Of a stretch of DNA of 29,346 nucleotides, positions 3,532-28,353 are shown one piece after another; position 1 is the stretch's first letter, and every line of letters begins with the position of its first letter. Origin of the DNA: a virus; the IMG/VR virus record IMGVR_UViG_3300044712_002507, positions 1 to 29,346 of that record; one strand, 5' to 3'. Below the pieces are notes generated by a model. It did no database searches, was not told where the DNA came from, and saw only the letters and a program-made list of their open reading frames with translations. The translations under genes were made by a program, and so were the position numbers.

Positions 3532-3566
3532 ATTATACACCAGCAACATGAGAATAACATGAGAGT
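3532..3566 (-). promoter_or_regulatory. Repeat promoter P1
   Basis: The -10 box TATAAT is 3532-3537 on the minus strand. Two TCTCATG elements (3547-3553 and 3558-3564) stand 11 bp apart, the nearest 9 bp above the -10. No -35 consensus is present. It drives the GNAT gene with a leader of only about 15 nt. Confidence 0.85.
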
Positions 3567-3570
3567 TTTT

Positions 3571-3840
3571 CTACCGGAGCCAAGGGAGGCGGTAAGCCTG
3601 GGAACACATTTTGCAGGCCATCTTTTGGGTGAAAGCGTTAGCTTGCACCGGGCGCACTAGCTCCGCCTCGTAATTGAGACCACAATAGTCGCAATGGCCT
3701 TGCGGCAGCCGCGGGTTCAGCTTTACCCGTTCCGCCGATTTGGCCATAATGTAGCTCAAGGGAATCAACTTAGCCTTCTTGGGCTTGGTACGGGTGACCT
3801 CTTCTTCGTCTACGCCGGGATTGTGTTGGTTGTGGTTCAT
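3571..3840 (-). CDS. Small zinc-finger protein, unknown function
   Basis: This 89-residue basic protein carries two Cys pairs, GHCDYCGLNYEAE and MACKMCSQAYR, a CxxC...CxxC pattern that would bind one zinc. The N-terminal half is charged and probably disordered (VDEEEVTRTKPKKAK). The ATG at 3840 follows AAAGGAG. It has its own repeat promoter immediately upstream. The zinc ribbon suggests nucleic-acid or protein binding, but no family is recognised. Confidence 0.7.
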   Translation of the reverse strand: MNHNQHNPGVDEEEVTRTKPKKAKLIPLSYIMAKSAERVKLNPRLPQGHCDYCGLNYEAELVRPVQANAFTQKMACKMCSQAYRLPWLR

Positions 3841-3859
3841 GTTTGAACTCCTTTATTAT

Positions 3860-3905
3860 ATTATAACGGAGTTGCATGAGAAGAGCATGAAAATTGAATG
3901 AGAGT
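3860..3905 (-). promoter_or_regulatory. Repeat promoter P2
   Basis: TATAAT at 3860-3865 (a second ATTATA at 3855-3860 is possible, but only the first keeps the common 9-bp spacing). Repeat copies lie at 3875-3881, 3886-3892 (TTTCATG) and 3897-3903 (TCTCATT), each 11 bp apart; the two outer copies are imperfect. It drives the zinc-finger gene. Confidence 0.8.
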
Positions 3906-3953
3906 TCTTGAACCAAAACGGGGAGTAGTACTGCGGCTTGGTCCACTTTGCCG

Positions 3954-4016
3954 CTACGATCGGTTGTATGGTTTGGCTTACCCTAACTGCGTATGGATCC
4001 GTACAACTGATCGTAC
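3954..4016. repeat. Inverted-repeat element E1
   Basis: A 63-bp element with 16-bp arms (3954-3969 and 4001-4016). On the plus strand the two internal differences between the arms become G-U or U-G pairs, while on the minus strand they would be A-C mismatches. The inner part shares TGGCTTACCCT and GGATCCGTACAAC with element E2. It lies just beyond the stop of the gene ending at 4023 and before promoter P2. Confidence 0.75.
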
Positions 4017-4022
4017 AGGCGC

Positions 4023-4445
4023 TCAGGTATGACAATTCATAATCCAGCCCTCAGGGGACTCTTCAACATGGAAGTAGGTCGGCCTAAACCAGTTGCCGAT
4101 CACACGCACACCGCGCTTGGCTAAAGCCTCGCCACGATGGCGGTTTATCGAGCCTGGGTAGCAGGGTGTGATGTACAAATAGGCGCCCGGCGGGATCTCG
4201 TAATCAAAGAAGGAGCACACCGCCCCCCGTAATTTCTCTACCTTCAAGGTCTCCCATTTGCGGCCCTCCAGGAATAGTTTACCGCTCCGGCCCCCATGTA
4301 TGCATGAAGCCACGTAGGCGGTCTTGCCATCCGGAGCTGTGAACAGGAACAGGTAGTCGGCCCTGTCTGTTGGACCGACTACCTTTTTGATCAATACTAG
4401 GTCTTCCCTCGGGATTGTTACCCGGCGTTGGGCTGCTGTGCTCAT
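4023..4445 (-). CDS. Hypothetical protein downstream of the DUF6011-like gene
   Basis: I placed the start at 4445 because this ATG overlaps the stop of the preceding gene (ATGA) and follows a GGGGGG ribosome site; a longer frame from 4469 is possible but would overlap more. The 140-residue product is a soluble alpha/beta-looking protein with aromatic and glycine-rich stretches (YLFLFTAPDGKTAYVASCIHG, PPGAYLYITPCYPGSINRHRG). The C-terminal half has KRGVRVIGNWFRP. No family was recognised. Coupling to the upstream zinc-finger gene suggests the two work together. Confidence 0.7.
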   Translation of the reverse strand: MSTAAQRRVTIPREDLVLIKKVVGPTDRADYLFLFTAPDGKTAYVASCIHGGRSGKLFLEGRKWETLKVEKLRGAVCSFFDYEIPPGAYLYITPCYPGSINRHRGEALAKRGVRVIGNWFRPTYFHVEESPEGWIMNCHT

Positions 4446-4945
4446 AAACCCCCCATCTGACGCATGCACTCGGGGCCAATACCATTGGCGATCGATTCGG
4501 GTACAGTCAACTTACGACCACAGCGACCACAGCGACCTTCATGCCAAACGCTGAGCACACTGGGTAAGTATTCGTACGTGGCTAAGGCGGTCAACACCCA
4601 GTTCAGCGCGACTACCGAGGGCGCCTCGAGGCCAACCTTGCTGGCGCGGGTGGTGGTGAATTTGTAATTGCCTACGATCGGGCCATCGGGGACCAACATG
4701 CCCATGTAGGTGTAATCGCTCTCGTTGTCCTGGCCGGACAGCAGCTTGATGAAGTAGCGCGGTTGCTGCGTGGGCGACTGATTCTCGACCTCATCGATCT
4801 TATAGGTGAAGTGACCGTCGGTCTTGCGGCTCTCGAAGGTAATGGTGGCGCTACCGGCGAACATGAAGCGCTTTACCGATTCTATGGTGGTCAGCTGTCC
4901 GCGCATTTCTTCGGTGGTGTGGTCGTGGGTGTGGGTTAGGGTCAT
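4442..4945 (-). CDS. DUF6011-like zinc-finger protein
   Basis: The start at 4945 follows an AGGAG site; the open frame continues upstream to 5002, but that ATG lies inside the promoter repeats. The 167-residue product has an unremarkable N-terminal part with TTR- and Lys-rich strands, and a C-terminal zinc finger of the DUF6011 type: GRCGRCGRKLTVPESIANG followed by GIGPEC. That signature is frequent in phage and plasmid proteins and probably serves nucleic-acid binding. It is the first gene of a two-gene unit under promoter P3. Confidence 0.75.
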   Translation of the reverse strand: MTLTHTHDHTTEEMRGQLTTIESVKRFMFAGSATITFESRKTDGHFTYKIDEVENQSPTQQPRYFIKLLSGQDNESDYTYMGMLVPDGPIVGNYKFTTTRASKVGLEAPSVVALNWVLTALATYEYLPSVLSVWHEGRCGRCGRKLTVPESIANGIGPECMRQMGGL

Positions 4946-4984: not shown

Positions 4985-5030
4985 ATTATACCGGCGCAAC
5001 ATGAGAATACCATGAGAATAACATTAGAGT
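4985..5030 (-). promoter_or_regulatory. Repeat promoter P3
   Basis: TATAAT at 4985-4990. Repeats at 5000-5006, 5011-5017 and 5022-5028 (the last is TCTAATG) are 11 bp apart, the nearest 9 bp from the -10. The farthest copy overlaps the stop codon of the 45-residue gene upstream. Confidence 0.85.
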
Positions 5031-5408: not shown

Positions 5409-6377
5409 TTATGCGCGGGCGAAATGATTCGCGCGGCTGGTGAAGTAGTTGATTGAAGTTTCATTCAGGCCCAAGCTGCGGACCAATTCTTCAACGTTGC
5501 TCTTGGCGCTCATGCTTTCGGTCTTGGCGGTTTCGGCTAAAGCTAAGACGAAGCGGACCCAATTGCTAATCTTGGCGAATTCGACCGAACCTTGGTGCTG
5601 GCGGAATTCTACCGTACCGTGGCGGGTATAGGCTTCTAAATTCACGGTGTGGTAGCGGCTGTCCGAGCGTTCCGAAAGCTGCTCGATCGTGGTGCAATTT
5701 TCGAAGTTGGCGATATCGTAGCTGTCGTAGGGCTTGCAATAGGAATTGTTTACGCGGCTCGGCGCCATGAAACTGCTGATCAAAGCGTAATTGTTCTGGT
5801 AAGATTTCACGATATTGCGGACCGCTTCAACGTTCAGATCATCGGTTCCAATGTGTACGTGGAGGCCACAGGATTTGTTGATTTTGGCACCGGCGGCAAC
5901 TAAGGCGTTGCAAACCGTTTCGAGCGTGGCCATTCCAGCCTCACCACGGAGGATTGGGCTTACAATCTCGCAACCCTGGCCGCGAATGCTGCTGTCGCTC
6001 ATAACCTTCCAAGAACGGGGTGTTTCGTGGTTATAGTGGCTGTACTCATCACTGGTTTCGATTCCGGCGGCGCGAAGGGCGGCGGTTACGGTTTCGTGAT
6101 CGATTTCGGTTACTTCCATCTCAACCCCGTAAGTGCGGTTGGTGATGGCGTATTCGCGGCTAATTTCGGTTACCGAATTGATCGTGGCTACTTCGGCGAT
6201 CAGTTCGACCACGGTCTGGTGGCGGCGGTTGCTGAAGTACTGGCGGGCGATGTCGGCGTCGATGTGCCATTCACCATTCACTTTGATCGCGGCTAAAACG
6301 CCATTGCGGGCTAACTTGCGGATGTACATTGGGTGGCGATTGTATTCGGTGGCGATCTGGTCAACTGTTTGGTACAT
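5409..6377 (-). CDS. HTH-amidoligase fusion (Amidoligase_2-like)
   Basis: This 322-residue protein is likely an ATP-dependent amide-bond-forming enzyme of the glutamine-synthetase fold. Residues 1-50 look like a MerR/excisionase-type DNA-binding helix-turn-helix (TVDQIATEYNRHPMYIRKLARNG, then VNGEWHI). The remainder has the Amidoligase_2 hallmarks: YGVEMEV at about 83-89, WKVMSDSSI at 123-131, GCEIVSPIL at 135-143, CGLHVHIG at 170-177 and EFRQHQGS at 257-264. These carry the metal- and ATP-binding acidic, Arg and His residues of the family. Established work on amidoligases proposes peptide tagging or small-metabolite synthesis. The N-terminal HTH is unusual and could target DNA or simply be a structural wing. 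An AGGAG site precedes the ATG. Confidence 0.82.
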   Translation of the reverse strand: MYQTVDQIATEYNRHPMYIRKLARNGVLAAIKVNGEWHIDADIARQYFSNRRHQTVVELIAEVATINSVTEISREYAITNRTYGVEMEVTEIDHETVTAALRAAGIETSDEYSHYNHETPRSWKVMSDSSIRGQGCEIVSPILRGEAGMATLETVCNALVAAGAKINKSCGLHVHIGTDDLNVEAVRNIVKSYQNNYALISSFMAPSRVNNSYCKPYDSYDIANFENCTTIEQLSERSDSRYHTVNLEAYTRHGTVEFRQHQGSVEFAKISNWVRFVLALAETAKTESMSAKSNVEELVRSLGLNETSINYFTSRANHFARA

Positions 6378-6424: not shown

Positions 6425-6480
6425 ATTATAGCTCCGGCACATGAGAATAACATGAGAATTACATGAGAGTTACATGAGAG
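6425..6480 (-). promoter_or_regulatory. Repeat promoter P4 (four perfect repeats)
   Basis: TATAAT at 6425-6430. Four perfect TCTCATG copies stand at 6440-6446, 6451-6457, 6462-6468 and 6473-6479, all 11 bp apart. This is the best-conserved site of the window and drives the amidoligase unit. The leader carries the shared CCAAACAGGAGA ribosome-site block. Confidence 0.9.
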
Positions 6481-6993: not shown

Positions 6994-7040
6994 ATTATAC
7001 ATCGCGAACATGAAACTCTCATGAGAATTACATGAGAGTT
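6994..7040 (-). promoter_or_regulatory. Repeat promoter P5
   Basis: TATAAT at 6994-6999. Repeats at 7009-7015 (TTTCATG), 7020-7026 and 7031-7037 are 11 bp apart. The transcript leader (about 6872-6988) contains a strong GAGGAGG followed by a GTG that could start a 31-codon frame to 6882, but ribosome site and start would overlap. Confidence 0.85.
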
Positions 7041-7220: not shown

Positions 7221-7268
7221 ATTATACCGGGGCAACATGAGAATAACATGAGAATTACATGAGAGTTT
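7221..7268 (-). promoter_or_regulatory. Repeat promoter P6
   Basis: TATAAT at 7221-7226 with perfect TCTCATG copies at 7236-7242, 7247-7253 and 7258-7264, 11 bp apart. It drives the 45-residue gene at 7062-7199. Element E2 adjoins it at 7269. Confidence 0.88.
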
Positions 7269-7402: not shown

Positions 7403-8020
7403 TTACTCTTCGTCGGCGATGGCTAACAGTCTCGCGATGGTGACGTCGCAATCCAACCCGAGGAGGTCTAATTGCTTGCGGGCTTCGGTGGCTAACCGTT
7501 TCAGTTCGCGGCGAGCGTAGTTACGACGATTGCGGGCGTCATTGGCCTGCTGGCGGGCTTCAGCTTCCTGAATCTGCTGTTTTACGGTGGTGTTGCCCAA
7601 GCGCTTCAACATTCCCGGAATCGTGAGGCAACCGGTACGTTCTTGATAGTTGCCGTAGCGCCCTGTCTTTTTGGTCCACACATCGTTGATCATGTCGCCC
7701 AATTCCATCGATAACGAAATGTAATCGCTGCGGGTCCAGCTAGTGCTGTGGTTACGATTGGCTTCCTGGAGACCGTAGGTCGTTTCGCGGTGGCGAGGAG
7801 GGCGCTGAGCTTCGGCTTCTTTGATCAGGCGGTCGTAATCCGGCGTCCCGTAGGCGTCATTTGCGGCGTCCCACATCGGGGTCCAAGCTTCGTAAGCTTC
7901 TTTGCTGTCGTAAACCATTTCGATGCGATCCCACATGGTCCAGCGGGTTTCGGCATAGTGGCGGTGGCTGGCGATGAAAGCTACGAGTTCTTCTAAGGTG
8001 GTTACACTGTGTTGAGTCAT
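7403..8020 (-). CDS. Hypothetical 205-aa helical protein
   Basis: The start at 8020 follows AGGAG; the longer frame from 8086 would begin inside promoter P7. The protein is strongly helical. A first part holds TLEELVAFIASHRHYAETRW and a WTPMWDAANDAYGTPDYDRLIKEAE stretch. The C-terminal third is a long Arg/Ala/Gln-rich coiled-coil-like helix (QQIQEAEARQQANDARN, RRELKRLATEARKQL). There is no membrane segment or metal site and no family was recognised. It forms its own transcription unit with terminator, which implies regulated, separate expression. Confidence 0.75.
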   Translation of the reverse strand: MTQHSVTTLEELVAFIASHRHYAETRWTMWDRIEMVYDSKEAYEAWTPMWDAANDAYGTPDYDRLIKEAEAQRPPRHRETTYGLQEANRNHSTSWTRSDYISLSMELGDMINDVWTKKTGRYGNYQERTGCLTIPGMLKRLGNTTVKQQIQEAEARQQANDARNRRNYARRELKRLATEARKQLDLLGLDCDVTIARLLAIADEE

Positions 8021-8068
8021 TTTCAATCTCCTGTTTGGTCTGTTTGTGTTCGTTCGTTCTATATATTT

Positions 8069-8125
8069 ATTATACAGGCCCAACATGAGAGGTACATGAG
8101 AATAACATGAGAATATGATGAGAGT
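8069..8125 (-). promoter_or_regulatory. Repeat promoter P7
   Basis: TATAAT at 8069-8074 with repeats at 8084-8090, 8095-8101, 8106-8112 and an imperfect fourth at 8117-8123 (TCTCATC). All are 11 bp apart. The last one abuts the stop codon of the lipoprotein gene. Confidence 0.87.
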
Positions 8126-8623
8126 CTAGGGTTGCGGTGTGGCCGCCTGTTGGGTCAGCATCGCGTGTTGTGTTGCAGCCATGGGCATGTCAATCGGTGT
8201 AATCTCCGGAGTTGGCGGAACCGCCGTTGGTTGACCGGTGGGCGTTGGAATGACAATGGTAGGCGCCTCGGTCGCCGTCGCTAATGGTTCCGGGGTTGCG
8301 GTCACAACTACAACGACGACTTCCGGCGTGGCTGTGGGAATAAGCTCATTTTCGGCGGCCAGCAGCACACCCGCCTTGGGCGGGGTCGCGGTAGTCGTAA
8401 TGGTCGCCGTTGCTGGGGCCGGAGCTAAGACTGGAGCCGCCTCTACTGAAACGGGCTGCGCCAGAGTCGCCGTTGTGGTCGCCGGCAATAAGGTTACGGT
8501 GGGGGTCGCCGATGCGGTTGCGGTTGCGGTTGCAGCAGGTGTGGCTAATGGGGCCAAGACGACCTCGTTAGTACAGCCTACCAACAGGGCGACTACAAGG
8601 ATGATCAAGGTTCTAGTTTTCAT
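8126..8623 (-). CDS. Thr/Ala/Pro-rich lipoprotein
   Basis: The start at 8623 overlaps the stop of the preceding gene by 11 bp and follows GAGG. The product has a lipoprotein signal peptide: MKTRTL, a hydrophobic core, and the lipobox LVGC with Cys17. The rest (about 148 residues) is a low-complexity chain of Thr, Ala, Pro and Val with TPTATPE- and TATPEPLATAT-like units and no folded domain. It would be an envelope-anchored extended tether. It could be a spanin-like or superinfection-related lipoprotein, but no domain supports either. Such linkers are typical of Chloroflexota surface proteins, hinting at the host. Confidence 0.75.
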   Translation of the reverse strand: MKTRTLIILVVALLVGCTNEVVLAPLATPAATATATASATPTVTLLPATTTATLAQPVSVEAAPVLAPAPATATITTTATPPKAGVLLAAENELIPTATPEVVVVVVTATPEPLATATEAPTIVIPTPTGQPTAVPPTPEITPIDMPMAATQHAMLTQQAATPQP

Positions 8624-9101
8624 CTTCAATGTCCTCAATTTCAATATCGGTTGGTCCGGGCCAGAATTCAATAGTGCCTACGTCGATGCAAGAACAGTCA
8701 AACGGAGGCACACCGTTCTGCTGGGGCAGGCCGCAGAAGGGGCAGGTCCGAAGTTGCTTTAGAACGGCCCGGCGCCGAAAAATGCGGTGGCGTGGATTGC
8801 CGACAAATGTTTCCCGTTCGCCGTCCCAAACGGTATGATCTCGGACCCACCCCATAAAGCGCCACCATTCCTTGTCTTGGGGGATTATGTCGCTGCTGTT
8901 GACGCAGACAATATCGCCCGTTGGGGTGCGGAACTTGTTGATGTAGTAGGGGCCGAATTTGCCGCCTGCAGCAACGGTCTTGAAGTATTGCAGACAAGGG
9001 ATCTCGATTTTCTCGCCTGGGGTACCGAGGTGGTTGCCGGTCGGAGCTGGCTCACGAAAATCGATGATCAATTTTGGCTTAGGCGGTGTGGCGGGCATCA
9101 T
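8613..9101 (-). CDS. Hypothetical protein with zinc-ribbon-like Cys cluster
   Basis: This 162-residue protein starts at 9101, where ATGATG overlaps the stop of the 32-residue membrane peptide gene; the second ATG (9098) is also possible. The middle is rich in aromatic residues (KEWWRFMGWVRDHTVWDG). Near the C terminus a Cys cluster, CPFCG followed by CSC, could bind zinc, and the end is acidic (EIEDIEDEN). It sits in an operon with membrane and lipoprotein genes (P8 unit). Function unknown. Confidence 0.72.
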   Translation of the reverse strand: MMPATPPKPKLIIDFREPAPTGNHLGTPGEKIEIPCLQYFKTVAAGGKFGPYYINKFRTPTGDIVCVNSSDIIPQDKEWWRFMGWVRDHTVWDGERETFVGNPRHRIFRRRAVLKQLRTCPFCGLPQQNGVPPFDCSCIDVGTIEFWPGPTDIEIEDIEDEN

Positions 9102-9206: not shown

Positions 9207-9944
9207 CTAGTTATGGTTTACGCCGTTCTTCTTGCCGTTCTGGCGATAGCGCGGAACAAGGTCGATATTCTGGTCGCCCAGGAAGCCAGCCACTGCATCC
9301 GCCTTATCGGGATCCACATGGATCACATATTTCTTACCGCGGGGTGTGCCGGCTGTACTGGCGAACTGCTGAGTAGGTTTAGGGGCTGCATTCTCATTGG
9401 TAATCCGGTCGGACACTTCGCCGCGAATGCGATCCGAGATTAGCTTCTTTTTCTCATTGGCCAATACGCGCTTATCCGAGGCCACTAATTTCAGGGCCTC
9501 CTTGTGAATCTCGAATTCCATTTCTCGCTGGGCCCGTTCCCGCTGAAGCTTGGCATCATTAGACAGGTAGTAAAGAGCGGCGCCCACATTGGTGGCCATG
9601 ATCGCAGGTAAACCATACATCAACCCGGTTGCTAGAAAGGCTGGGATGACGTAGCCTTCTAACATGGTCTGGCGCAGAATCATGTCTGCGATACCTGCCG
9701 CCAACGACCCCACGAAGTCCATAAAGATCATGGTCACGGAAACATTGTATTGTTCGTGGGTCGTTGTATGCGACATCGAAATTTCATGCCACAGAAGCAG
9801 ACCAGCTTCGGAGGCAAACAAAAACGCGATCGACAGCCAAACGGATATGTCATTCTTTGGCAGCTGTGACAGTAAGAAGTCTACCGTGCGCCAGCCCGTA
9901 TAGGCAAGCAGTACGAACGAGTAGGCCCTGATAATCCATCTCAT
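9207..9944 (-). CDS. Four-TM membrane protein with coiled-coil and soluble C-terminal domain
   Basis: This 245-residue protein has hydrophobic segments at about 5-25, 35-52, 70-88 and 98-128 (the last including FLATGLMYGLPAIMATNVGAAL). A basic/acidic coiled-coil follows at about 130-180 (QRERAQREMEFEIHKEALKL). The tail is polar with a KKYVIHVDPDKADAVAGFLG segment that looks like a small folded module. It is the first gene of the P8 unit with the micropeptide, Cys-cluster protein and lipoprotein. The gene set suggests an envelope complex, for example superinfection exclusion, but that is only inference. No family recognised. Confidence 0.75.
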   Translation of the reverse strand: MRWIIRAYSFVLLAYTGWRTVDFLLSQLPKNDISVWLSIAFLFASEAGLLLWHEISMSHTTTHEQYNVSVTMIFMDFVGSLAAGIADMILRQTMLEGYVIPAFLATGLMYGLPAIMATNVGAALYYLSNDAKLQRERAQREMEFEIHKEALKLVASDKRVLANEKKKLISDRIRGEVSDRITNENAAPKPTQQFASTAGTPRGKKYVIHVDPDKADAVAGFLGDQNIDLVPRYRQNGKKNGVNHN

Positions 9945-9983: not shown

Positions 9984-10020
9984 ATTATACAACCCGAACA
10001 TGAAAATAACATGAGAATTT
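9984..10020 (-). promoter_or_regulatory. Repeat promoter P8
   Basis: TATAAT at 9984-9989 with repeats at 9999-10005 (TTTCATG) and 10010-10016, 11 bp apart. Only two copies, one imperfect. Drives the four-gene envelope unit at 8126-9944. Confidence 0.8.
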
Positions 10021-10053: not shown

Positions 10054-10128
10054 CTACTTGACCTTGCGGGGCTTGAATACGAAATAGCCCCAGATGGCTA
10101 CGACAACGACCGCAATTAGTGTAAACAT
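10054..10128 (-). CDS. Single-TM micropeptide downstream of the DNA polymerase (24 aa)
   Basis: Its ATG overlaps the polymerase stop (TAATG) with GGAG placed 9 bp upstream. The product is MFTLIAVVVVAIWGYFVFKP followed by RKVK: one hydrophobic helix with a basic tail. It is too small for family assignment. Position and coupling argue for real translation; a chance open frame remains possible. Confidence 0.5.
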   Translation of the reverse strand: MFTLIAVVVVAIWGYFVFKPRKVK

Positions 10129-12551
10129 TAGATTAGCTCCGGCGGCTGTGCCCACCGAGTGGGGAACGTGCCGTCTTTATTGGAATCGACATCGGCCTTC
10201 CAGGCGACTCGGTGACAATACTTTTCACCCATCTCTTGCATAATTGCCTGGATTCGTTTCGCTTGCGCCGGTGCTTCATGCGGCCAAGCCTCGGCGACAA
10301 TGCTGTCATGGACCATCAAGATCACATCAATACCCTCATCCATGGCCTGACAGGCCGACAGCAGAGTCAAGTCGCTAGCGGTACCGGCAACCGGGGCGTG
10401 CACAGCTGATTTACGCGCATCATCCCGGTTTTGGGAGTTGATGAAGACGAAACGACGCCGACGACCAAATACGGTACTTACATAGGCATTGCGCACCAGG
10501 CTGTTGTATTGATCCACCCGAAACTGGGCTAACTTCGGCATGGCCCGGTTGTAGTCACGAACGAACTGGCGCGCGGCATTGATTGGCAGTCCAGCATCCT
10601 GAGCGAAGGAATATTCCGAACCACCGTATAAATAGCTGAAGTTGAACATTTTGCAACGGACCCGTTGCTCTTTGGTGTATCCAGAACCAAAGATGGCTTT
10701 GGCTACCTTACCGTGCAGGTCTTCGTTATTTCGGTACGCCTCAATCAGAAATGGCTCCTCGCTCAAGTGGGCAGCCACACGCAGCTCAGCCTGGCTGTAG
10801 TCCGCCACAATCAATACTTTACCGGGATCCGCAATAACTGAACCACGTACGATGGCGCCGTCCAAATAAGGATCATAGTCCTCCAATTGGGTCTGTTCTT
10901 CACCAACCGGCCGCGGCAACGTTTGGAAGGCTGGGTCGCGCATTGAAAGCCGCCCGATTTCGGTGCCGTGGATCAAGGTCTCCGGGTGTGCTCGCCCTTT
11001 AGCATCAACCGCCTCGATCAGATTGTCTACGTAGGAACTCTTCAATTTGGCAATGCGACGGTAACGCATCAACAAATCGATGAACTCATGTTTCCCAATC
11101 AACGGGGCTACAGCCTCGTGAGAGGTGGACCGTGGCTTGACCTTGTTAGATTTCACTAACGGCATTTTGAGGATATCATAAATAATGACCGCCACCTGCT
11201 GCGAAGAGCCCAGGTTCAGCTTGGGCTGGTTGAACATGGTCCGGGCCTGCGTTACAATCCGTTCCATCTCCTTTTCCATGGCTGCGCCGGCTCGTTGCAA
11301 ATACGGGATATCAACCCGGATACCGCGCTGTTCCATCTGTGCTAGTTTCGGTTGCGCACGCATGATCACATTACGCCAAGGCCACTCCCACAGGCCCTGT
11401 GCCTTCAGGCGCTGCTCGAATACGCCTTTTATGGCGCGGGTTACAACCACGTCCCATACACCGTATTGGGAGAAGTCTTCAAACGGTACCTTGGAGTAGC
11501 GATCATTACGATTGATCAGGTACCGGCCAACCAACATGGCCTCCCAATCCGGTAACCCAAATTCTTGATAGGCCAACGTTTTCAGACCTAGTTCCCCATT
11601 CTCGTTCAGAATGTAGGCGGCCAGCATGGTGTCGAAATCGACCCGGGTACGCAGACCTAGCTGCGCATTTTGGAATACCATGTCAAAGGTCCCGTTCTGT
11701 GCTACGAAGGTCAAGTCGGTGCGATCAAAGAATTGCTGCAGCACCACCAGGCTCTCCGGGTCGTCATACAACATTTGGTCGCCGACTACCACACCCTCGG
11801 TATCACACCAGGCGATGGATAAGAATAGAATGGCATCCCGGGGCTTGCCGTTATGCGCATACCACTCTGTTTGGTCGGTTTCAATGTCGAATGAGACATC
11901 CTCGTTCACACCGCTGGGGCAGGTGGCCAAGACCTCACGTAACTCCGTCGCCGTTGTAGGAACGATGACCTTGGGCGGCTTATGAATATTGAACCGGGGT
12001 TGTGCTTGCACACCCAGAACTACGCCGATGTCGCGATCAAGATCCCCGGCTTCGGAGGGTTTACGTAAAATGTAGGCCGGATGCCAAGAAGGCAAGATTT
12101 GGAACATGCGACCACCGATTCTTACGTTATGCCACACGCCCCGTTCACTAATATTGTAGTTGGTGAATAAGGATTCCGCGGCTACCTTGCCTAGGGCCAG
12201 GACCTTGCTAGAGGCATGTTGCTGCAGCTCGGCGACCAGCCGTGGGTAACAACAACCTGCGGCCTGCTGTACAATCTGTTCTTTGTAGAGCTCGGTACCG
12301 GGAGGCGGTGCACATAAAGTTGCATTGGTTAGGTATAGTTTGGAAACGTCTCCGCCTCGATTGGTGATCAAGGCTTTCAACAATTTCCCGGGGGGCCCAA
12401 CGAAAGGTTGCCCGTAGGCAACCTCTTCGTTTCCGGGTCCCTCACCAATTACGATCAATGCATCCGCATCTTGGCTACCTGTGGCTGGAATCATAGTTTG
12501 CGCAGACAGGGGACATTGATCACACATGGCGTGAGGTGCTTTAGAGATCAT
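10128..12551 (-). CDS. Fusion of uracil-DNA glycosylase-like domain and family A DNA polymerase
   Basis: This 807-residue protein is the replicative polymerase. Residues 1-180 match a family 4/5 UDG with an iron-sulfur cluster: Cys10 and Cys13 (CDQC), GEGPGNEEVAYGQPFVG at 36-52, TNATLC at 75-80, Cys100/101, and SWHPAYILR at 155-163. A 3'-5' exonuclease follows: DIET at 222-225, then AQNGTFD, and YGVWD for Exo III. The polymerase part has motif A (ADYSQAELR), the O-helix (RCKMFNFSYLYGG, Phe at the position that selects against ddNTPs) and motif C (VHDS). All catalytic residues appear intact. UDG-PolA fusions are known from phages such as SPO1. It overlaps the DpdA-like gene by 11 bp, so DNA modification and replication are co-expressed. 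Confidence 0.93.
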   Translation of the reverse strand: MISKAPHAMCDQCPLSAQTMIPATGSQDADALIVIGEGPGNEEVAYGQPFVGPPGKLLKALITNRGGDVSKLYLTNATLCAPPPGTELYKEQIVQQAAGCCYPRLVAELQQHASSKVLALGKVAAESLFTNYNISERGVWHNVRIGGRMFQILPSWHPAYILRKPSEAGDLDRDIGVVLGVQAQPRFNIHKPPKVIVPTTATELREVLATCPSGVNEDVSFDIETDQTEWYAHNGKPRDAILFLSIAWCDTEGVVVGDQMLYDDPESLVVLQQFFDRTDLTFVAQNGTFDMVFQNAQLGLRTRVDFDTMLAAYILNENGELGLKTLAYQEFGLPDWEAMLVGRYLINRNDRYSKVPFEDFSQYGVWDVVVTRAIKGVFEQRLKAQGLWEWPWRNVIMRAQPKLAQMEQRGIRVDIPYLQRAGAAMEKEMERIVTQARTMFNQPKLNLGSSQQVAVIIYDILKMPLVKSNKVKPRSTSHEAVAPLIGKHEFIDLLMRYRRIAKLKSSYVDNLIEAVDAKGRAHPETLIHGTEIGRLSMRDPAFQTLPRPVGEEQTQLEDYDPYLDGAIVRGSVIADPGKVLIVADYSQAELRVAAHLSEEPFLIEAYRNNEDLHGKVAKAIFGSGYTKEQRVRCKMFNFSYLYGGSEYSFAQDAGLPINAARQFVRDYNRAMPKLAQFRVDQYNSLVRNAYVSTVFGRRRRFVFINSQNRDDARKSAVHAPVAGTASDLTLLSACQAMDEGIDVILMVHDSIVAEAWPHEAPAQAKRIQAIMQEMGEKYCHRVAWKADVDSNKDGTFPTRWAQPPELI

Positions 12552-13293: not shown

Positions 13294-13294
13294 T

Positions 13295-14945: not shown

Positions 14946-14980
14946 ATTATACCACGGTTACATGAGAATTACCTGAGAGT
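14946..14980 (-). promoter_or_regulatory. Repeat promoter P9
   Basis: TATAAT at 14946-14951, perfect repeat at 14961-14967 and an imperfect one at 14972-14978 (TCTCAGG). Weakest array among those listed, with one perfect copy. It is the only visible promoter for queC, the DUF6378-like gene, folE, dpdA, polymerase and micropeptide. Confidence 0.8.
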
Positions 14981-20270: not shown

Positions 20271-20292
20271 ACTGGTGGCTCCTTATGTTTTT

Positions 20293-20338
20293 ATTATACC
20301 TGAGTTTTCTGAGGCTTGCATGAGAATTACATGAGAGT
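20293..20338 (-). promoter_or_regulatory. Repeat promoter P10 (degenerate proximal repeat)
   Basis: TATAAT at 20293-20298. At the usual 9-bp distance stands a degenerate copy, CCTCAGA, at 20308-20314; perfect copies follow at 20319-20325 and 20330-20336. Phase is kept at 11 bp. Drives the nuclease to primase operon. The outermost copy and the following CTCATG (stop region of the helicase gene) form a 6-bp inverted repeat. Confidence 0.8.
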
Positions 20339-20342
20339 TTTC

Positions 20343-21801: not shown

Positions 21802-21998
21802 TATTTCGCCTCTTCTACTTTCCAGACCTTGGTGGGGTGATACCAGCACAACTGGCGTACACTTTCTGAGGTGTAAACCTGGGCTTCGTCAGCAGAGGTT
21901 ACGGTTTCGATTTGACCGTAGCAGGTTTTGACTTTGTCACCGCGAACTAACGTTGTTTGGTCGCCACGATTGGGATCCGCTTTTCGATTCTTTTTCAT
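21801..21998 (-). CDS. Small hypothetical protein (65 aa)
   Basis: A small basic protein that begins MKKNRKADPNRGDQTTLVRG, then VKTCYGQIETVTSADEAQVYT and WYHPTKVWKVEEAK. The RGDKVKTCYGQIETV strand pattern resembles a small SH3-like beta barrel (KOW-like) found in many short phage proteins, but I cannot assign a family. AGGAG precedes the ATG. First gene of the P11 unit, followed by the membrane peptide and helicase. Confidence 0.65.
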   Translation of the reverse strand: MKKNRKADPNRGDQTTLVRGDKVKTCYGQIETVTSADEAQVYTSESVRQLCWYHPTKVWKVEEAK

Positions 21999-22036
21999 CT
22001 CTGTTTCTCCTGTTTGGTTTCTCTTTCTATATATCT

Positions 22037-22082
22037 ATTATACATCCCGAACATGAGAATATCATGAGAATTACATGAGAGT
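22037..22082 (-). promoter_or_regulatory. Repeat promoter P11
   Basis: TATAAT at 22037-22042 with perfect repeats at 22052-22058, 22063-22069 and 22074-22080. Drives the 65-residue gene, membrane peptide and SNF2 helicase. The leader has the shared CCAAACAGGAGA block. Confidence 0.88.
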
Positions 22083-22091
22083 TTTAGTCAA

Positions 22092-22316
22092 TCAATTGGA
22101 CCGACCACACAGCGCTAACTCGGCACGTACAGCAGCTTCATCTATTATCACCACCCCGTACTCGTCGGCGCGATACAACCGGTGACCGAAGAGGACAAAA
22201 TCGGTAGGATTTTCATCGGTGATGATGCAGCGGTCATCGGACATGTGTAAGGTGCCCTGGCGCTCGTTGCGATCATCAAAACTGCAATAGTGCTTACCTA
22301 CGGGAATGTTTCTCAT
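22092..22316 (-). CDS. Small hypothetical protein (74 aa)
   Basis: I chose ATG 22316 (MRNIPVGKHYC) because GAGG lies 9 bp upstream; the frame also runs back to 22337. The product looks like a small beta-rich domain: HYCSFDDRNERQGTLHMSDDR, CIITDENPTDFVLFGHRLYRA, then YGVVIIDEAAVRAELALCG. It overlaps the gene before it by 23 bp. It is the last gene of the queD unit. No family recognised. Confidence 0.65.
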   Translation of the reverse strand: MRNIPVGKHYCSFDDRNERQGTLHMSDDRCIITDENPTDFVLFGHRLYRADEYGVVIIDEAAVRAELALCGRSN

Positions 22317-22434
22317 CGATACGATCCTCAATATCATCCAATGCCACGGTGTAAATGACGATTGCTACTAATAGCAGACTGGGTGTGACCCAGCAGCAAA
22401 GACCGGTTAGAACACCTTCCCACCACTGCATCAT
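22294..22434 (-). CDS. Single-TM micropeptide (46 aa)
   Basis: Starts at ATG 22434, overlapping the preceding stop (ATGA), or at the next ATG, 22431; GGAGG is close upstream. Product: MMQWWEGVLTGLCCWV, then a hydrophobic stretch LLLVAIVIYTVAL and a charged tail DDIEDRIDEKHSRR. It has one membrane helix. The tail overlaps the start of the following gene in another frame. Function unknown. Confidence 0.6.
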   Translation of the reverse strand: MMQWWEGVLTGLCCWVTPSLLLVAIVIYTVALDDIEDRIDEKHSRR

Positions 22435-22655
22435 GCCTCCAGCAGATTTTGAGGGATCCCGTTGCGCCGCCAACTTTTCAAAATGTCCTCGGTGCTGCGG
22501 GTGGATTGTCGCGCTTCTTGCGAGGCTAAGTGAAAAATATGTTCCGCTGTTTTATGATACAAAGGCGCCATTTCGGCTGCAATAAGCATGCAATTGGCGT
22601 AGTCGCGAATTGCCCCGAGTTCTACGGCGGTGTAGGTACGGGTGGGTAGTTTCAT
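22431..22655 (-). CDS. Small helical hypothetical protein (74 aa)
   Basis: The ATG overlaps the stop of the zinc-ribbon gene (ATGA). The product is mainly helical: TAVELGAIRDYANCMLIAAE, then HKTAEHIFHLASQEARQ and ILKSWRRNGIPQNLLEA. No metal site or membrane segment is visible and I recognise no family. It lies in the middle of the queD-queE unit and is translationally coupled at both ends. Confidence 0.65.
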   Translation of the reverse strand: MKLPTRTYTAVELGAIRDYANCMLIAAEMAPLYHKTAEHIFHLASQEARQSTRSTEDILKSWRRNGIPQNLLEA

Positions 22656-23095
22656 TTGCGTACCTCTTCCAAGGTAAACTGGTTAGCACGCCAGCGTAGC
22701 CGATCCGGGTTTTCGATGCGCCTAATCTCAAAGATGGCGGGGTAAGGTACATCCTGCTCCATCATGGTCAGGACTTCTTGCTCACCTTGAGCCACTAAGA
22801 ATAACTGCCAGAGCACATCATCCAAGGCCCCCATTCTCTCGCGCAGTAACGGCATCGAGAACTCGAAGTGCTCCACCAATTGCGTGCCCCGGTAGAAATA
22901 GAAACTGCGTGTGTCACGAGGCGGATCGCAAATAACCCAAACGACGTACCCATTCAGCATGAAGTAGTAGCCGTCATCTTTACGGGGTGTGAGCTTGGGT
23001 AACGGAGCCCCGCAAAACTGGCAGTAAATGCGGTCGGGCGTGGTGGGATCCTTACCGCAGTAGGAACAAGCGCAATTGGTGGAGGAAGGAGGCAT
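22652..23095 (-). CDS. Zinc-ribbon hypothetical protein after queE
   Basis: The start at 23095 lies two bases after the queE stop, with GGAG 8 bp upstream; the longer frame to 23197 would overlap queE. The 147-residue product opens with a zinc-ribbon-like cluster (CACSYCGKDP, then YCQFCGAPLPKL), then a beta-rich part, YYFMLNGYVVWVICDPP. Next comes a helical part with GALDDVLWQLFLVAQGEQEVL. Function unknown. Confidence 0.7.
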   Translation of the reverse strand: MPPSSTNCACSYCGKDPTTPDRIYCQFCGAPLPKLTPRKDDGYYFMLNGYVVWVICDPPRDTRSFYFYRGTQLVEHFEFSMPLLRERMGALDDVLWQLFLVAQGEQEVLTMMEQDVPYPAIFEIRRIENPDRLRWRANQFTLEEVRK

Positions 23096-23097
23096 GA

Positions 23098-23829
23098 CTA
23101 AACTCCGAGTTTGTGGCCCCACAAAATAACATGAAGTTGCGGTAACAGACATACGTCTTGCATGTCTTCCAGCTCGGTTACAGTCTCGAGCAGCCATTGA
23201 AACCGGTCAATGATGTTCTGGGTGCTGTCCACAGCCAGCTTCTTGACGAACTCGTTATTCGGTGCTACGGTACCCACGGAGAGGTAGAATGGCACGTCAG
23301 GATAGCGCTTATGCACACCCTGCGCGAAGAGCAGGTCATCAGTACCGAATACAACCACTTTGAGGATATGCGGTGTTTCACAGGCCTGCAGTCGATCCAT
23401 TACCTGGGACAGGGCCACGAAATCGGTCTCCATGCCTGAGGAGGGCGGCTTAGGCGAGATGACCACATTGTTGCAGGTAGTCATCCAGTATTTATACGCC
23501 GATCCCTGGGTCTCCACAGCCACTTGGTAGCCGGCATTCTGCAGCGCGTAGACCAGCTGTTGCAGGTCCCACAACAGTGGATTGCCGCCGGAGAGAATGA
23601 CCCACTTGGCAAAGCCGGGCAGGTTATTGACGCGGTCCACGATTTCTGGTGTGGTCAGCTCGGGCAACAATTTTACATGTTCGGGCAGCACCGCGTGCAT
23701 GCTGTCGCACCAAGAGCAACGATAGTCGCAGGCGCCGAAACGGACAAAGTAACAAAGCTGACCGGCTTGGTTACCTTCGCCTTGGATGGTGGGACCGAAA
23801 ACTTCGGCGACCCGGAATTTGTTTTGCAT
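23098..23829 (-). CDS. queE: 7-carboxy-7-deazaguanine synthase QueE (radical SAM)
   Basis: QueE contracts the ring of 6-carboxytetrahydropterin to 7-carboxy-7-deazaguanine using SAM and a 4Fe-4S cluster. The 243-residue protein has GPTIQGEG (12-19), the cluster motif FGACDYRCSWCD with Cys34, Cys38 and Cys41, the WVILSGGNPLL strand (GGNP in place of GGEP), VETQGS and ISPKPPSSG. These are the characteristic QueE residues. It is separated from queD by one small zinc-binding gene, all under promoter P12, while queC and folE sit in another operon. Confidence 0.94.
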   Translation of the reverse strand: MQNKFRVAEVFGPTIQGEGNQAGQLCYFVRFGACDYRCSWCDSMHAVLPEHVKLLPELTTPEIVDRVNNLPGFAKWVILSGGNPLLWDLQQLVYALQNAGYQVAVETQGSAYKYWMTTCNNVVISPKPPSSGMETDFVALSQVMDRLQACETPHILKVVVFGTDDLLFAQGVHKRYPDVPFYLSVGTVAPNNEFVKKLAVDSTQNIIDRFQWLLETVTELEDMQDVCLLPQLHVILWGHKLGV

Positions 23830-23831
23830 GG

Positions 23832-24032
23832 TTAGACCCTGTCCATTTTCATATACAATGGTTCATTCATTACCGGGCAATGCCCGAAATGAGTGTATTC
23901 GATGACGCTGCCGCCTACCCACAACTTGATCGGGACGGTAAGCGGGAACATTTCTAAGCGCTTGTGTTCCCCGCCGCAGGCGCCACATTTCGGCACGTCT
24001 ACAAATATGTGTTGTTTAGAAGAGGGGTTCAT
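23832..24032 (-). CDS. Small zinc-binding protein between queD and queE (66 aa)
   Basis: The start at 24032 overlaps the queD end by 17 bp; a longer frame would run further into queD. The product, MNPSSKQHIFVDVPKCGACG and on, has CGACGG, a later single Cys (FGHCPVM), and beta strands MFPLTVPIKLWVGGSVIEYT. A zinc site is possible but incomplete. Insertion between two pathway genes and overlap with queD suggest a role tied to preQ0 synthesis or a chance insertion; no family recognised. The ribosome site is weak, so translation probably depends on queD. Confidence 0.6.
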   Translation of the reverse strand: MNPSSKQHIFVDVPKCGACGGEHKRLEMFPLTVPIKLWVGGSVIEYTHFGHCPVMNEPLYMKMDRV

Positions 24033-24378
24033 ATGTGGCCCAAGTCTTGTCGGTCTCGCTGACCCGAACAGCACGTACCGTCGGCCCCAAAAGATCGCGG
24101 GCGACGTTGAATAATTGCTTGGCCAGGTTTTCGGCGGTGGGGTTGAACTCGCACTGGTCGTTTAGGTGTCGGTGGTCGTACTGGGCATCTAACCACTGTT
24201 GAAACGGCTTCAGCTCCCCGTAATCCTTGACAAAGCCGACCTCATTCAAAGTGGAGGCCGAAAGTACAACTTCGACCCGATAATTGTGGCCATGTAACCG
24301 CGCACAAGGATGACCTTCCGGCAATCCCTTGAGTTGGTGGCTGGCCGAGAACGTGAACTGCTTGCTGATTGTATACAT
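24016..24378 (-). CDS. queD: 6-carboxy-5,6,7,8-tetrahydropterin synthase QueD
   Basis: QueD converts dihydroneopterin triphosphate to 6-carboxytetrahydropterin, the second preQ0 step. The 120-residue product has all hallmarks: FSASHQL with zinc ligand His14, CARLHGHNY with Cys25, His29 and His31, FVKDYGELK, DHRHLND, NPTAENLA and VSETDKTW. AGGAG precedes the ATG. Its length is that of a free-standing bacterial QueD. It is the first gene under P12 but lies about 325 bp below the -10 box, a far longer leader than elsewhere in this arm. Confidence 0.95.
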   Translation of the reverse strand: MYTISKQFTFSASHQLKGLPEGHPCARLHGHNYRVEVVLSASTLNEVGFVKDYGELKPFQQWLDAQYDHRHLNDQCEFNPTAENLAKQLFNVARDLLGPTVRAVRVSETDKTWATYEPLF

Positions 24379-24706: not shown

Positions 24707-24752
24707 ATTATACCGGCCCTTCCTGAGAATTGCATGAGAATAACATGAGAGT
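24707..24752 (-). promoter_or_regulatory. Repeat promoter P12 (degenerate proximal repeat)
   Basis: TATAAT at 24707-24712. The proximal copy at 24722-24728 reads TCTCAGG; perfect copies lie at 24733-24739 and 24744-24750. Drives queD, the zinc-binding gene, queE and four more genes. Confidence 0.85.
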
Positions 24753-24761: not shown

Positions 24762-25010
24762 CTATTGCAGCATCCAATCGACCCAGGCTTGGGCCTCCCG
24801 CGACAGCGGGGTTGTGATTTGCTGTGCGCCCGGATAACCGAACAGGGCTAACACATGGTTGTTCAGTTGATCAATTTGATCGCCGGACAGGCCTTTGCAG
24901 GCGGCTAAGTACAGTTGCTGTGTGCGACGGGCTGCGGAGCCTTTGCGGCGCGAATTGAAACGGTCAATGGCCCCAAGACGGGCGTAAACATCAGTTACGG
25001 ATTGTACCAT
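24762..25010 (-). CDS. Small helical protein, paralogue of the next gene upstream (82 aa)
   Basis: This protein and the one at 24991-25263 are clearly related: both have an N-terminal ARL segment, a basic patch (RRKGSAARRTQQL here), LAACKGLSGDQIDQL, a LALFG turn, and end in REAQAWVDWM. It overlaps its paralogue by 20 bp. Mainly helical, no metal site. Function unknown; a tandem duplication is the simplest origin. Confidence 0.7.
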   Translation of the reverse strand: MVQSVTDVYARLGAIDRFNSRRKGSAARRTQQLYLAACKGLSGDQIDQLNNHVLALFGYPGAQQITTPLSREAQAWVDWMLQ

Positions 25011-25263
25011 TTTGTCCCTCCGTCATCCAAGTAACCCAGGCCTGCATGGCCGGTGTGAATGAATCGCTAGCCAAACGTTGCGCTTCGGAGTCGCCCAAAA
25101 GGGAGATCACGTGTTCCTGTAAGGCACAGGCTTGGTCCACGGATAAACCCGAGCAGGCAGCTGCGAAAAGGGAGCGGGTTTTGGGCGCTGAATCGCCTTC
25201 CCACTTTGAGTTATATTTGCGTAATGCGAGGGTTTCGTTGAGGCGGGCTTCTGGACTTTTCAC
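24991..25263 (-). CDS. Small helical protein, paralogue of the next gene downstream (90 aa)
   Basis: The start is GTG at 25263 behind AAAGGAG. It shares its layout with the gene at 24762-25010: SAPKTRSLFAAACSGLSVDQ, then HVISLLGD and PAMQAWVTWM. Conserved Ala-Cys-x-Gly-Leu-Ser and Gln-Ala-Trp-Val-x-Trp-Met positions mark the pair. No known family. It follows a long perfect hairpin, which separates it from the first gene of the P13 unit. Confidence 0.7.
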   Translation of the reverse strand: MKSPEARLNETLALRKYNSKWEGDSAPKTRSLFAAACSGLSVDQACALQEHVISLLGDSEAQRLASDSFTPAMQAWVTWMTEGQNGTIRN

Positions 25264-25324: not shown

Positions 25325-25534
25325 TTATCCCTGGTTTTCGAAATAAAGGATCATATCCTTTTCCAAACTCTGCCAGGTTTTGAACTGTTTCCAATATTCG
25401 TAACCATCCTGATGTTCGGCTTCATCCACGTAAGATTTGATTTGTTCTTCGGTGAATTTACCCGAGGTCCGAACTCCCGCCAAAAGACGGTTTTTGCGTT
25501 CCACTAACTTGCGATTCATCTTTTCTTCAAACAT
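25325..25534 (-). CDS. Small helical charged protein (69 aa)
   Basis: MFEEKMNRKLVERKNRLLAG opens a basic helix, then KFTEEQIKSYVDEAEHQDG and KQFKTWQSLEKDMILYFENQ. It is strongly charged and helical, without membrane segment or Cys. AGGAG precedes the ATG, and promoter P13 stands right above. No family recognised. Confidence 0.65.
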   Translation of the reverse strand: MFEEKMNRKLVERKNRLLAGVRTSGKFTEEQIKSYVDEAEHQDGYEYWKQFKTWQSLEKDMILYFENQG

Positions 25535-25557: not shown

Positions 25558-25603
25558 ATTATAACGGTTGAACATGAGAATACCATGAGAATAACATGAG
25601 AGT
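25558..25603 (-). promoter_or_regulatory. Repeat promoter P13
   Basis: TATAAT at 25558-25563 and perfect repeats at 25573-25579, 25584-25590 and 25595-25601. Drives the three small genes at 24762-25534. Confidence 0.88.
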
Positions 25604-26538: not shown

Positions 26539-26721
26539 CTATTTTAGTTGATCGCAAAGTTTATTGAAAACGTCCACTGCTTTTTGGTTACCCATCGCCG
26601 CGACCAACTCTTCGTTGGAATGGTTCTTGCGGTTACTAATTAGGTACGAGGCTTCGCCACGAGTGCAACCATGTTTTACAAGTATCGCAATAATCCGTTC
26701 GTACAAATCTGTTCGGTTCAT
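26539..26721 (-). CDS. Small helical protein (60 aa)
   Basis: MNRTDLYERIIAILVKHGCT followed by GEASYLISNRKNHSNEELVA and AVDVFNKLCDQLK. It is wholly helical with two separated Cys. AGGAG precedes the ATG and promoter P14 lies just above. Function unknown. Confidence 0.65.
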   Translation of the reverse strand: MNRTDLYERIIAILVKHGCTRGEASYLISNRKNHSNEELVAAMGNQKAVDVFNKLCDQLK

Positions 26722-26743: not shown

Positions 26744-26798
26744 ATTATACTGCCCGAACATGAGAATAGCGTGAGAATAACATGAGAGTCCGATGAGA
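26744..26798 (-). promoter_or_regulatory. Repeat promoter P14
   Basis: TATAAT at 26744-26749 with repeats at 26759-26765, 26770-26776 (TCTCACG), 26781-26787 and 26792-26798 (TCTCATC). The 60 bp at 26730-26789 are identical to those at P15 (28294-28353). Confidence 0.87.
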
Positions 26799-26799
26799 A

Positions 26800-27048
26800 T
26801 TACTCTTCCTCCTGCGGCGGGTCTACCGGAAGGGCTTCCACACAGATTATGGCGGTCTTCAGGAGCTCTTTAGGGATGAAGACTTTGCCTGAGTTGGTGG
26901 TAACGGACATATAGCTAGCATGGCCCATGGCGGCATTGCGAGCAAATTCCATAACCTCGTCTACTTGCTCTTCTTCCATGACCATGGTGAGTGAGCGGGA
27001 AATGCGGCCATCTAACAGCCTTACGGTAGTAGTTACTGCGTATTCCAT
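26800..27048 (-). CDS. Hypothetical protein (82 aa)
   Basis: A small soluble protein: MEYAVTTTVRLLDGRISRSL, then VMEEEQVDEVMEFARNAAMG, SVTTNSGKVFIPKELLKTAI and an acidic Pro-rich end (DPPQEEE). The beta-alpha-beta pattern with KVFIPKELL resembles the small ligand-like folds common in phage genes. GGAG precedes the ATG. Element E3 lies between it and the upstream gene, so it may be read from P15. Function unknown. Confidence 0.65.
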   Translation of the reverse strand: MEYAVTTTVRLLDGRISRSLTMVMEEEQVDEVMEFARNAAMGHASYMSVTTNSGKVFIPKELLKTAIICVEALPVDPPQEEE

Positions 27049-27069
27049 TTTTGTCTCCGGGTGGTGGCG

Positions 27070-27132
27070 GTACGATGTGTTGTAAGGAACCAGGCGCCCT
27101 AGGGGTGCTTCATTCCGTAGATTGCATCGTAC
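27070..27132. repeat. Inverted-repeat element E3
   Basis: Arms GTACGATGTGTTGTAA and GTAGATTGCATCGTAC are close to those of E1 and E2, with two differences that stay paired as U-G or G-U on the plus strand. The inner part is unrelated and contains its own stem (GCGCCCTAGGGGTGC). It overlaps the last codons and stop of the gene ending at 27110. Confidence 0.65.
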
Positions 27133-27796
27133 CGGCGTCGACTAGTTGCAGCTGCTGGGCTGCTTTGAATGCCTCCATTGCGGCGGCACAATCGGCTAGA
27201 GAAAGTAAGACACTCTCCAGCAATTCTACTTGCTCGACCGGCACAGCGCTGGTTCGGGTCAGGCGTAACATTTGGCGCTGCAGTAGCTCAATGACCGCAA
27301 CGGGCTCAATAATGTATGTTTTGCCCTCGCGGACCTCACGACGGATCCGGTCTTCCAAACATTCGTGAATTTTGCCGTAGTCTGCTTCTAGTTTTAGGAA
27401 AGGCTCAACAACGTTACCCTCCTCATCGAAAACTTCGGTGCGGTCAATCTCATCTACTTTTGCGGCCACAGCCCAGCCACGCCAGGCTCCACGGGACCAG
27501 AGAAAGTAGTTTTCATCGGGAATCCACTCTCGGTTACTAACCACGGCCAGGTTACCCACTTTAGCTTTGCCCTTTTTGGTCTTCGTTTTCGGCTGGATTA
27601 GGGTGGCCTCGGTCTCGGTCTCGGTCTCGGCGGCGGTCTCTTCTTTAGGTTGCCGAACGTGGGCGGCTTTATGACCAACCGCAACATCATCAGCATTGGC
27701 CTTGACCCACACGCCGCCTTGGCGGCAGCCGGTGTGCTTCATGCCATCTTTGGGTCGGTGAGTAACGAACCCGCACTTGTCGCATTTTACTTTCAT
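27110..27796 (-). CDS. Zinc-finger and coiled-coil protein with ETETETE linker (228 aa)
   Basis: The N terminus has a zinc-finger-like set, MKVKCDKCGFVTHRP then GMKHTGC. Next comes a low-complexity linker with ETAAETETETEATL and TKTKKGKAK. A folded part follows with NREWIPDENYFLWSRG and EVFDEEGNVVEPFLKLE, then a long helix with LLQRQMLRLTRTS and VELLESVLLSLADCAAAME. The stop codon lies within the loop of element E3. The DNA of the ETETETE linker is a hexamer repeat (TCGGTC on the plus strand), which may vary in copy number. Function unknown. Confidence 0.72.
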   Translation of the reverse strand: MKVKCDKCGFVTHRPKDGMKHTGCRQGGVWVKANADDVAVGHKAAHVRQPKEETAAETETETEATLIQPKTKTKKGKAKVGNLAVVSNREWIPDENYFLWSRGAWRGWAVAAKVDEIDRTEVFDEEGNVVEPFLKLEADYGKIHECLEDRIRREVREGKTYIIEPVAVIELLQRQMLRLTRTSAVPVEQVELLESVLLSLADCAAAMEAFKAAQQLQLVDAGTMQSTE

Positions 27797-27972
27797 CTTC
27801 GAGCCCCCCTAAGCTCATACCGGGCGCCTTTGAACGGGCCGGCAAATACTTCCCAAATACAAACCACCTGCGTACCGATGGTGTCCAAGTGGATCAACTT
27901 GACCGAGTATTTGCCGGGAGGCAATACTCGGCCGTCTTTTGTCGTTATGGGTGCTTCAGTGACAACCTTCAC
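27793..27972 (-). CDS. Small protein with GTG start (59 aa)
   Basis: The GTG at 27972 follows GGAG by 8 bp and lies four bases below the preceding stop; the TGA overlaps the next ATG. The product begins MKVVTEAPITTKDGRVLPPG, continues YSVKLIHLDTIGTQVVCIWE and ends FKGARYELRGARR. It looks like a small beta barrel. The tight packing on both sides supports it. Confidence 0.65.
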   Translation of the reverse strand: MKVVTEAPITTKDGRVLPPGKYSVKLIHLDTIGTQVVCIWEVFAGPFKGARYELRGARR

Positions 27973-27975
27973 GAT

Positions 27976-28287
27976 CTAACTCCACATAAAACTAATATTG
28001 GTACCGCAGTGACGGCAGGTTGTATTGACCGAGCGCGTAGTGCGGTGGTTGATGGTGTGTTTGCCGCCTACGTGGGCAGTGGCGGGTTTGCGGCAATGGG
28101 GGCATTCAATCGGTTGTTTTCCGGTAATGGCGAAACTGATCTGATCTTTGACAAAGGCGTAAATGTATCCCGAGGGTACAGGTTCGGTCTTGCTGAATGG
28201 GTAGGGGTAGGCTTCCATTTCGGCTTTGGTGTTGAAGTTATGAATCTCGTACCCGGTTGAAGTCTTTCCGTAATATGTGTGTGCCAT
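27976..28287 (-). CDS. Zinc-ribbon protein (103 aa)
   Basis: A polar N-terminal half (MAHTYYGKTSTGYEIHNFN, with YPYPFSKTEPVPSGYIYAF) leads to a C-terminal zinc ribbon with CPHCRKP and CRHCGTN as the two Cys pairs. AGGAG-like GGAG precedes the ATG. First gene under promoter P15. Unknown function. Confidence 0.7.
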   Translation of the reverse strand: MAHTYYGKTSTGYEIHNFNTKAEMEAYPYPFSKTEPVPSGYIYAFVKDQISFAITGKQPIECPHCRKPATAHVGGKHTINHRTTRSVNTTCRHCGTNISFMWS

Positions 28288-28307
28288 CTCATATCTCCTA
28301 TATATTT

Positions 28308-28353
28308 ATTATACTGCCCGAACATGAGAATAGCGTGAGAATAACATGAGAGT
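28308..28353 (-). promoter_or_regulatory. Repeat promoter P15
   Basis: TATAAT at 28308-28313 with repeats at 28323-28329, 28334-28340 (TCTCACG) and 28345-28351. Near-copy of P14. Drives the genes at 27976, 27793, 27110 and probably 26800. Confidence 0.88.

Follow-up and report, generated by a model that had tools for sequence, protein, structure and literature searches.

Analysis of the viral record IMGVR_UViG_3300044712_002507 (29,346 bases, an incomplete genome of a phage and referred to here as the window) revealed 15 minus-strand sites, from 3532 to 28352, at which a TATAAT box is combined with two to four in-register repeats of the type TCTCATG at an 11-bp period. Activation of these array promoters by a protein of the OmpR type is predicted from their architecture and is well supported. 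A regulator of this family other than PhoB, probably encoded by the host, is on balance the protein that we favor as driving the early arm of the phage. The arrays, their register, the missing -35 element, the occurrence of the same promoter type in a second contig (L010), a matching box at a clade of bacterial regulators, and a different box at pstS were computed directly.

Architecture of the array promoters

Pairs of TCTCATG spaced 11 bp apart, with up to two mismatches, numbered 30 in the window against 0.13 expected in shuffled sequences (shuffle maximum of 1). Furthermore, copies of TCTCAT were separated by 11 bp in 18 cases and by 22 bp in 10, while every other 6-mer recurred at most twice at spacings from 8 to 24. 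The 15 promoters account for 29 of the 30 phased pairs; the last comes from an inverted repeat at 7017, read on the plus strand. These results are in agreement with a first-pass annotation of the window, which had reported 15 minus-strand TATAAT sites with two to four TCTCATG copies at an 11-bp period, all of which were recovered. With one in-register mismatch allowed, four sites contain two units, eight contain three, and three contain four. The minus strand holds only two non-overlapping TATAAT boxes free of arrays (17423 and 18844), and no TATAAT was found on the plus strand across the window.

The full repeat unit has the preferred form TTCTCATGTTA or TTCTCATGTAA, i.e. the unit TTCTCATG followed by TTA or TAA, and the farthest-upstream unit mostly has C as its first letter (CTCTCATG). 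A literature search on TTCTCATG yielded unrelated matches only, among the matches listed. The nearest CATG had been described as always ending 9 bp above the -10 box, which is the case at 13 of the 15 sites but not at 24712 and 20298, where the proximal unit is degenerate (TTCTCAGG and GCCTCAGA, respectively). The best match to a -35 element at 16-18 bp spacing averaged 2.9 of 6 letters at the array sites and 2.4 at random positions. As this is near chance level, the -35 element is absent from the array promoters, as was originally noted.

Heptamers with 4-bp spacers that end about 10 bp above the -10 box are typical of OmpR/PhoB winged-helix activators. Each of the 15 sites has phased units in this same arrangement (7-bp repeats, 4-bp spacers, an end about 10 bp above the -10 box and no -35 element). 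The sites would function as activator-dependent promoters, in which two to four head-to-tail TTCTCAT heptamers, one helical turn apart and on one face of the DNA from about -22 to -62, would stand in place of the -35 element. An OmpR/PhoB winged-helix activator is predicted to bind as tandem subunits beside RNA polymerase at the -10 box (class II activation), and the number and quality of the units probably determine relative promoter strength. The most likely binder would be a host response regulator of a CusR/RppA-like OmpR clade, which in Chloroflexota appears to control its own genes, and not PhoB.

Two pattern scans of viral contigs recovered the same promoter type in one further contig, L010, where array promoters lacking a -35 element occur at 481, 743, and 1392. 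A 56-kb record (IMGVR_UViG_3300027887_000001) carries relatives of both the L010 terminase and the window polymerase, and L010 and the window therefore belong to one phage group, with L010 offering a view of a region missing from the window. None of 16 loci with relatives of the window PolA carried arrays, and some of these polymerase relatives have early promoters with other common motifs, e.g. CAATGACCCTTATG above TATAAT in record G430, suggesting the array is confined to one sub-lineage. No confirmed relatives were obtained from a scan of viral contigs with the primase. Across records G428, G430, and G431 (L246-L257) other motifs stand above TATAAT; for instance, several promoters of G430 have CAATGACCCTTATG-like motifs and G428 has TTGACCCTTGTG. 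Two promoters of equal geometry, TCTCATGACAGTCTCATGN9TATAAT and a weaker one, were observed near the terminase gene of P-SSP7-like cyanopodoviruses (L007, L008, L009, L011).

A matching box at a Chloroflexota regulator clade

The pattern TTCTCATN4TTCTCATN10TANNNT, with up to two mismatches, gave 119 matches in 201 Chloroflexota genomes against 26 for the reversed control. In 199 Planctomycetota genomes the same pattern gave about 108 matches against about 76. Genes for OmpR-family response regulators lie downstream of the boxes at several separate loci, including L117, L126 and its orthologues, L163 (a three-unit array), and L167 (a divergent pair). Orthologues of the L126 regulator again have the box upstream, while more distant OmpR-family regulators are mostly without it. 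An unbiased scan of all 7-mers upstream of the regulator clade returned TTCCCAT at 12 of 25 and TTCTCAT at 8 of 25 (background of 0.2 and 0.1, respectively). According to NCBIfam, the regulators behind TTCTCAT boxes are nearest to CusR/RppA, with 200 and 207 bits against a PhoB cut-off of 296.

The phage arrays fit the box of this clade, TTC(T/C)(C/A)AT-N4-TTC(T/C)(C/A)AT-N10 to the -10 box (TTCYMAT-N4-TTCYMAT), having in common the heptamer, the 4-bp spacer, and the distance of about 10 bp to the -10 box. The clade usually has two degenerate units at the regulator gene, whereas the phage has two to four near-perfect ones.

HtrA-like and CtpA-like proteases and other exported proteins were also encoded downstream of Chloroflexota boxes. 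The secretion-stress regulators CutR and MprA are likewise of the OmpR family and have htrA among their targets, similar to one Chloroflexota site. Both were rejected as the regulator, the motifs TAWATAAA of CutR (PMC12802291) and TKTTAAGAAM of MprA (PMC12113857) being unlike the box. Within Levyibacteriota (L172, L173) a well-formed TTCTCAT-box promoter heads an FMN-binding/ApbE operon, and an OmpR-type regulator and a kinase adjoin it. In two Chloroflexota genomes (L146, L147), weaker boxes with two mismatches lie immediately above htpG.

Host assignment and origin of the activator

The DNA-binding-domain profile of these regulators had no match in the window, in L010, in four relatives of 48-56 kb, or in 18 other contigs. 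The absence of an OmpR-type domain from the scanned phage contigs favors a host protein, although the window is incomplete, and it speaks against the alternative first proposed, a winged-helix gene of the phage's own. Binding, activation, the lineage of the host, and the host rather than phage origin of the binder are what we infer from these comparisons. A Chloroflexota-type host is our guess, from the box itself and from the Thr/Pro-rich style of the lipoprotein encoded at 8126-8671, a style which we take to be common in Chloroflexota and consider suggestive only. A prophage link to a bacterium with the CusR-like clade was not found.

Several points weigh against this interpretation. The excess of boxes in Chloroflexota is partly shared by a control with a 12-bp period, which also gave about 68 matches compared to 119 at 11 bp. 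The preferred base after the heptamer is G in the phage (0.93) and C in the host boxes (0.50; G 0.19), although the host set was picked with the pattern itself and is hence biased. In all species genomes, a search requiring the two units without mismatch but allowing a loose -10 box gave 36 scattered matches, without a host cluster, against about 30 by chance; since the two numbers are so close, no genome in the scan equals the phage in the precision with which TCTCATG is used. A CRISPR link to a host was not found, and the weak Chloroflexota matches lay outside any repeat array in 4 of 4 cases tested. QueC, at 57% to Chloroflexota, was dropped as a host marker because other phyla are equally close (Sinorhizobium plasmids and an Arthrobacter phage at 56%). 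Dependence of a lytic arm on a phosphorylated host regulator would be unusual. Furthermore, L010 itself encodes a plausible candidate activator.

Alternative binders of the arrays

This candidate, a 314-amino-acid protein encoded on the minus strand of L010 (2689-3633) and adjoining a divergent late operon, contains approximately five helix-turn-helix (HTH) units; the repeated units are supported by Pfam and by AlphaFold, the latter with a low pTM (predicted template modeling score). The main alternative, which we regard as possible, if doubtful, is that the arrays are bound by a phage activator unrelated to OmpR, such as this one. Expression of the activator from an ordinary sigma-70 promoter would come first, and the protein would then turn on all array promoters, in an immediate-early to early cascade. 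Its gene has no array and is preceded by a near-consensus sigma-70 promoter (TTGTCA-17-TATAAT, 11 of 12 letters), the sole recognized promoter of normal sigma-70 form in L010, whereas those at 481, 743, and 1392 are arrays without a -35 element. Relatives free of arrays match the protein weakly (E ~1e-3), also consistent with such a role. Nonetheless, this explanation leaves unaccounted for the identity of heptamer, spacer, and -10 distance with the box of the bacterial OmpR clade. The protein comes from one contig, the corresponding region is missing from the genome of the window, and the protein may just as well be a small terminase subunit or a late regulator.

Activators of the SARP/BTAD type, of host or phage, have a winged helix of the same fold and were considered improbable binders. 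SARP operators, such as those of PimR, resemble the arrays in consisting of direct repeats of heptamers with 4-nt spacers (22-nt heptamer pairs), in two or three units (PMC5930380). They differ in that the PimR heptamer, CGGCAAG, is unlike that of the phage, and these proteins are regulators of actinobacterial antibiotics (PMC5930380). The Chloroflexota TTCTCAT boxes lie at two-component genes, and the scanned phage proteins contained no SARP-type domain.

The first-pass annotation had proposed an activator of the PhoB/OmpR type, with the host phosphate-starvation regulator as one candidate. The assignment to the OmpR family is upheld by the geometry and by the Chloroflexota box at an OmpR-family clade; the connection to PhoB and phosphate is not. 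Geometry indicates a class of protein and not PhoB in particular, because SARP proteins share it (PMC5930380) and CtrA sites have the 11-bp period (PMC9437464). True Pho boxes, with the early arm as a phosphate-starvation regulon under host PhoB, would be in keeping with the likeness to PhoB boxes, with the five of seven letters common to E. coli CTGTCAT and the phage heptamer, and with the known use of host PhoB by cyanophages (PMC10976474). However, a look above pstS, which had been suggested as the check, gave the phased heptamer CTTAACC in 8 of 28 Chloroflexota upstream regions (background of 0.8) and TTCTCAT in 0 of 28, a comparison valid only if the phage's own host is in that group. Together with regulator scores below the PhoB cut-off, this makes host PhoB a very improbable binder. 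The 11-bp-phased CTTAACC repeats before Chloroflexota pstS (L212-L241) are likely the Pho box of the phylum, and CTTAACC is similar to the cyanobacterial Pho box PyTTAAPyPy (PMC10976474).

Finally, iterons are tandem direct repeats, as the 11-bp units are, and cluster at an origin, but 29 of the 30 phased pairs lie in register with TATAAT boxes and are spread across 15 sites in 25 kb, so that a role as iterons of a replication initiator or as another non-transcriptional element was rejected as having next to no likelihood.

Genes and promoters of the early arm

At its left the window has plus-strand genes of the lysis type, and a single long arm lies on the minus strand. The arm encodes a GNAT acetyltransferase, an HTH-amidoligase, a UDG-DNA polymerase A fusion (10128..12551, minus strand; within the controlled arm and the query for finding relatives), FolE, QueC, a primase-like protein, an SSB-like protein, an AAA ATPase, a PD-(D/E)XK nuclease, an SNF2-type helicase, QueE, and QueD. 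FolE, QueC, QueE, and QueD together with a 250-amino-acid protein, a possible transglycosylase (12541-24378), suggest 7-deazaguanine modification of the DNA. Two neighboring small paralogous proteins of 82 and 90 amino acids, without a family match, are encoded at 24762-25263.

All array promoters are on the minus strand. The four-unit arrays with TATAAT are found at 26744..26799 (for gene 26539-26721), 8069..8124 (for gene 7403-8086, whose start codon is probably inside that open reading frame), and 6425..6480 (for the HTH-amidoligase gene 5409-6377). Three units precede TATAAT at 28308..28352 (gene 27976-28287), 25558..25602 (gene 25325-25534), 22037..22081 (before 21801-21998 and the SNF2-type helicase), 7221..7265, 4985..5029 (gene 4442-4945), and 3860..3904 (gene 3571-3840). 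Three units are also present at 24707..24751, upstream of queD/queE and with the proximal unit TTCTCAGG, and at 6994..7038, where the proximal unit is GTTTCATG and the inverted repeat CTCTCATG...CATGAGAG makes up the sole plus-strand phased pair. The promoter of the PD-(D/E)XK nuclease gene 19173-20270 (20293..20337) has two good units and one degenerate proximal unit. Two-unit arrays serve queC at 14253-14927 (14946..14979), gene 9207-9944 (9984..10017), and the GNAT acetyltransferase gene 3075-3509 (3532..3565).

Comparison with known systems and implications

Control of phage genes by an OmpR-family regulator of the host is an already known theme, exemplified by CtrA and PhoB. Promoters of Alphaproteobacteria phages contain many high-scoring sites of host CtrA, a situation described as 'lytic deferment' (PMC9437464). 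These sites (TTAA-N7-TTAA) share the 11-bp period with the arrays and belong, as is proposed for the arrays, to a response regulator of the OmpR family made by the host; binding and regulation were demonstrated for them (PMC9437464). The CtrA sites cluster in gap regions or terminal repeats, whereas the window phage has one type of site, TTCTCAT without a -35 element and with predicted binding, at 15 early-arm promoters. Cyanophage PhoB boxes likewise place phage genes, including DNA polymerase, under an OmpR-family regulator of the host, but at few genes and with the box PyTTAAPyPy instead of the heptamer TTCTCAT (PMC10976474). In the literature searched, no case was found of a host OmpR-family regulator controlling nearly a whole early arm.

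Since nearly every early gene starts at an array promoter, the replication programme of the phage may hang on a single, probably host-made, switch. We propose, tentatively and as somewhat less than probable, that nearly the whole early/replication arm of a lytic phage (15 promoters) is under one CusR-like response regulator of the host, of a type linked to envelope or redox stress, such that lytic entry awaits or senses a host signal. The analysis also yields TTCYMAT-N4-TTCYMAT as a candidate box of a Chloroflexota two-component clade and CTTAACC as one for the pstS regulon. If the proposal is true, the promoters with two, three, or four units would be a natural set for studying tandem OmpR-family binding versus promoter strength, and the box would be a DNA signature for pairing uncultured phages with their hosts. 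Infection would then depend on a signal from the host, which would go further than the cases already known for CtrA and PhoB.

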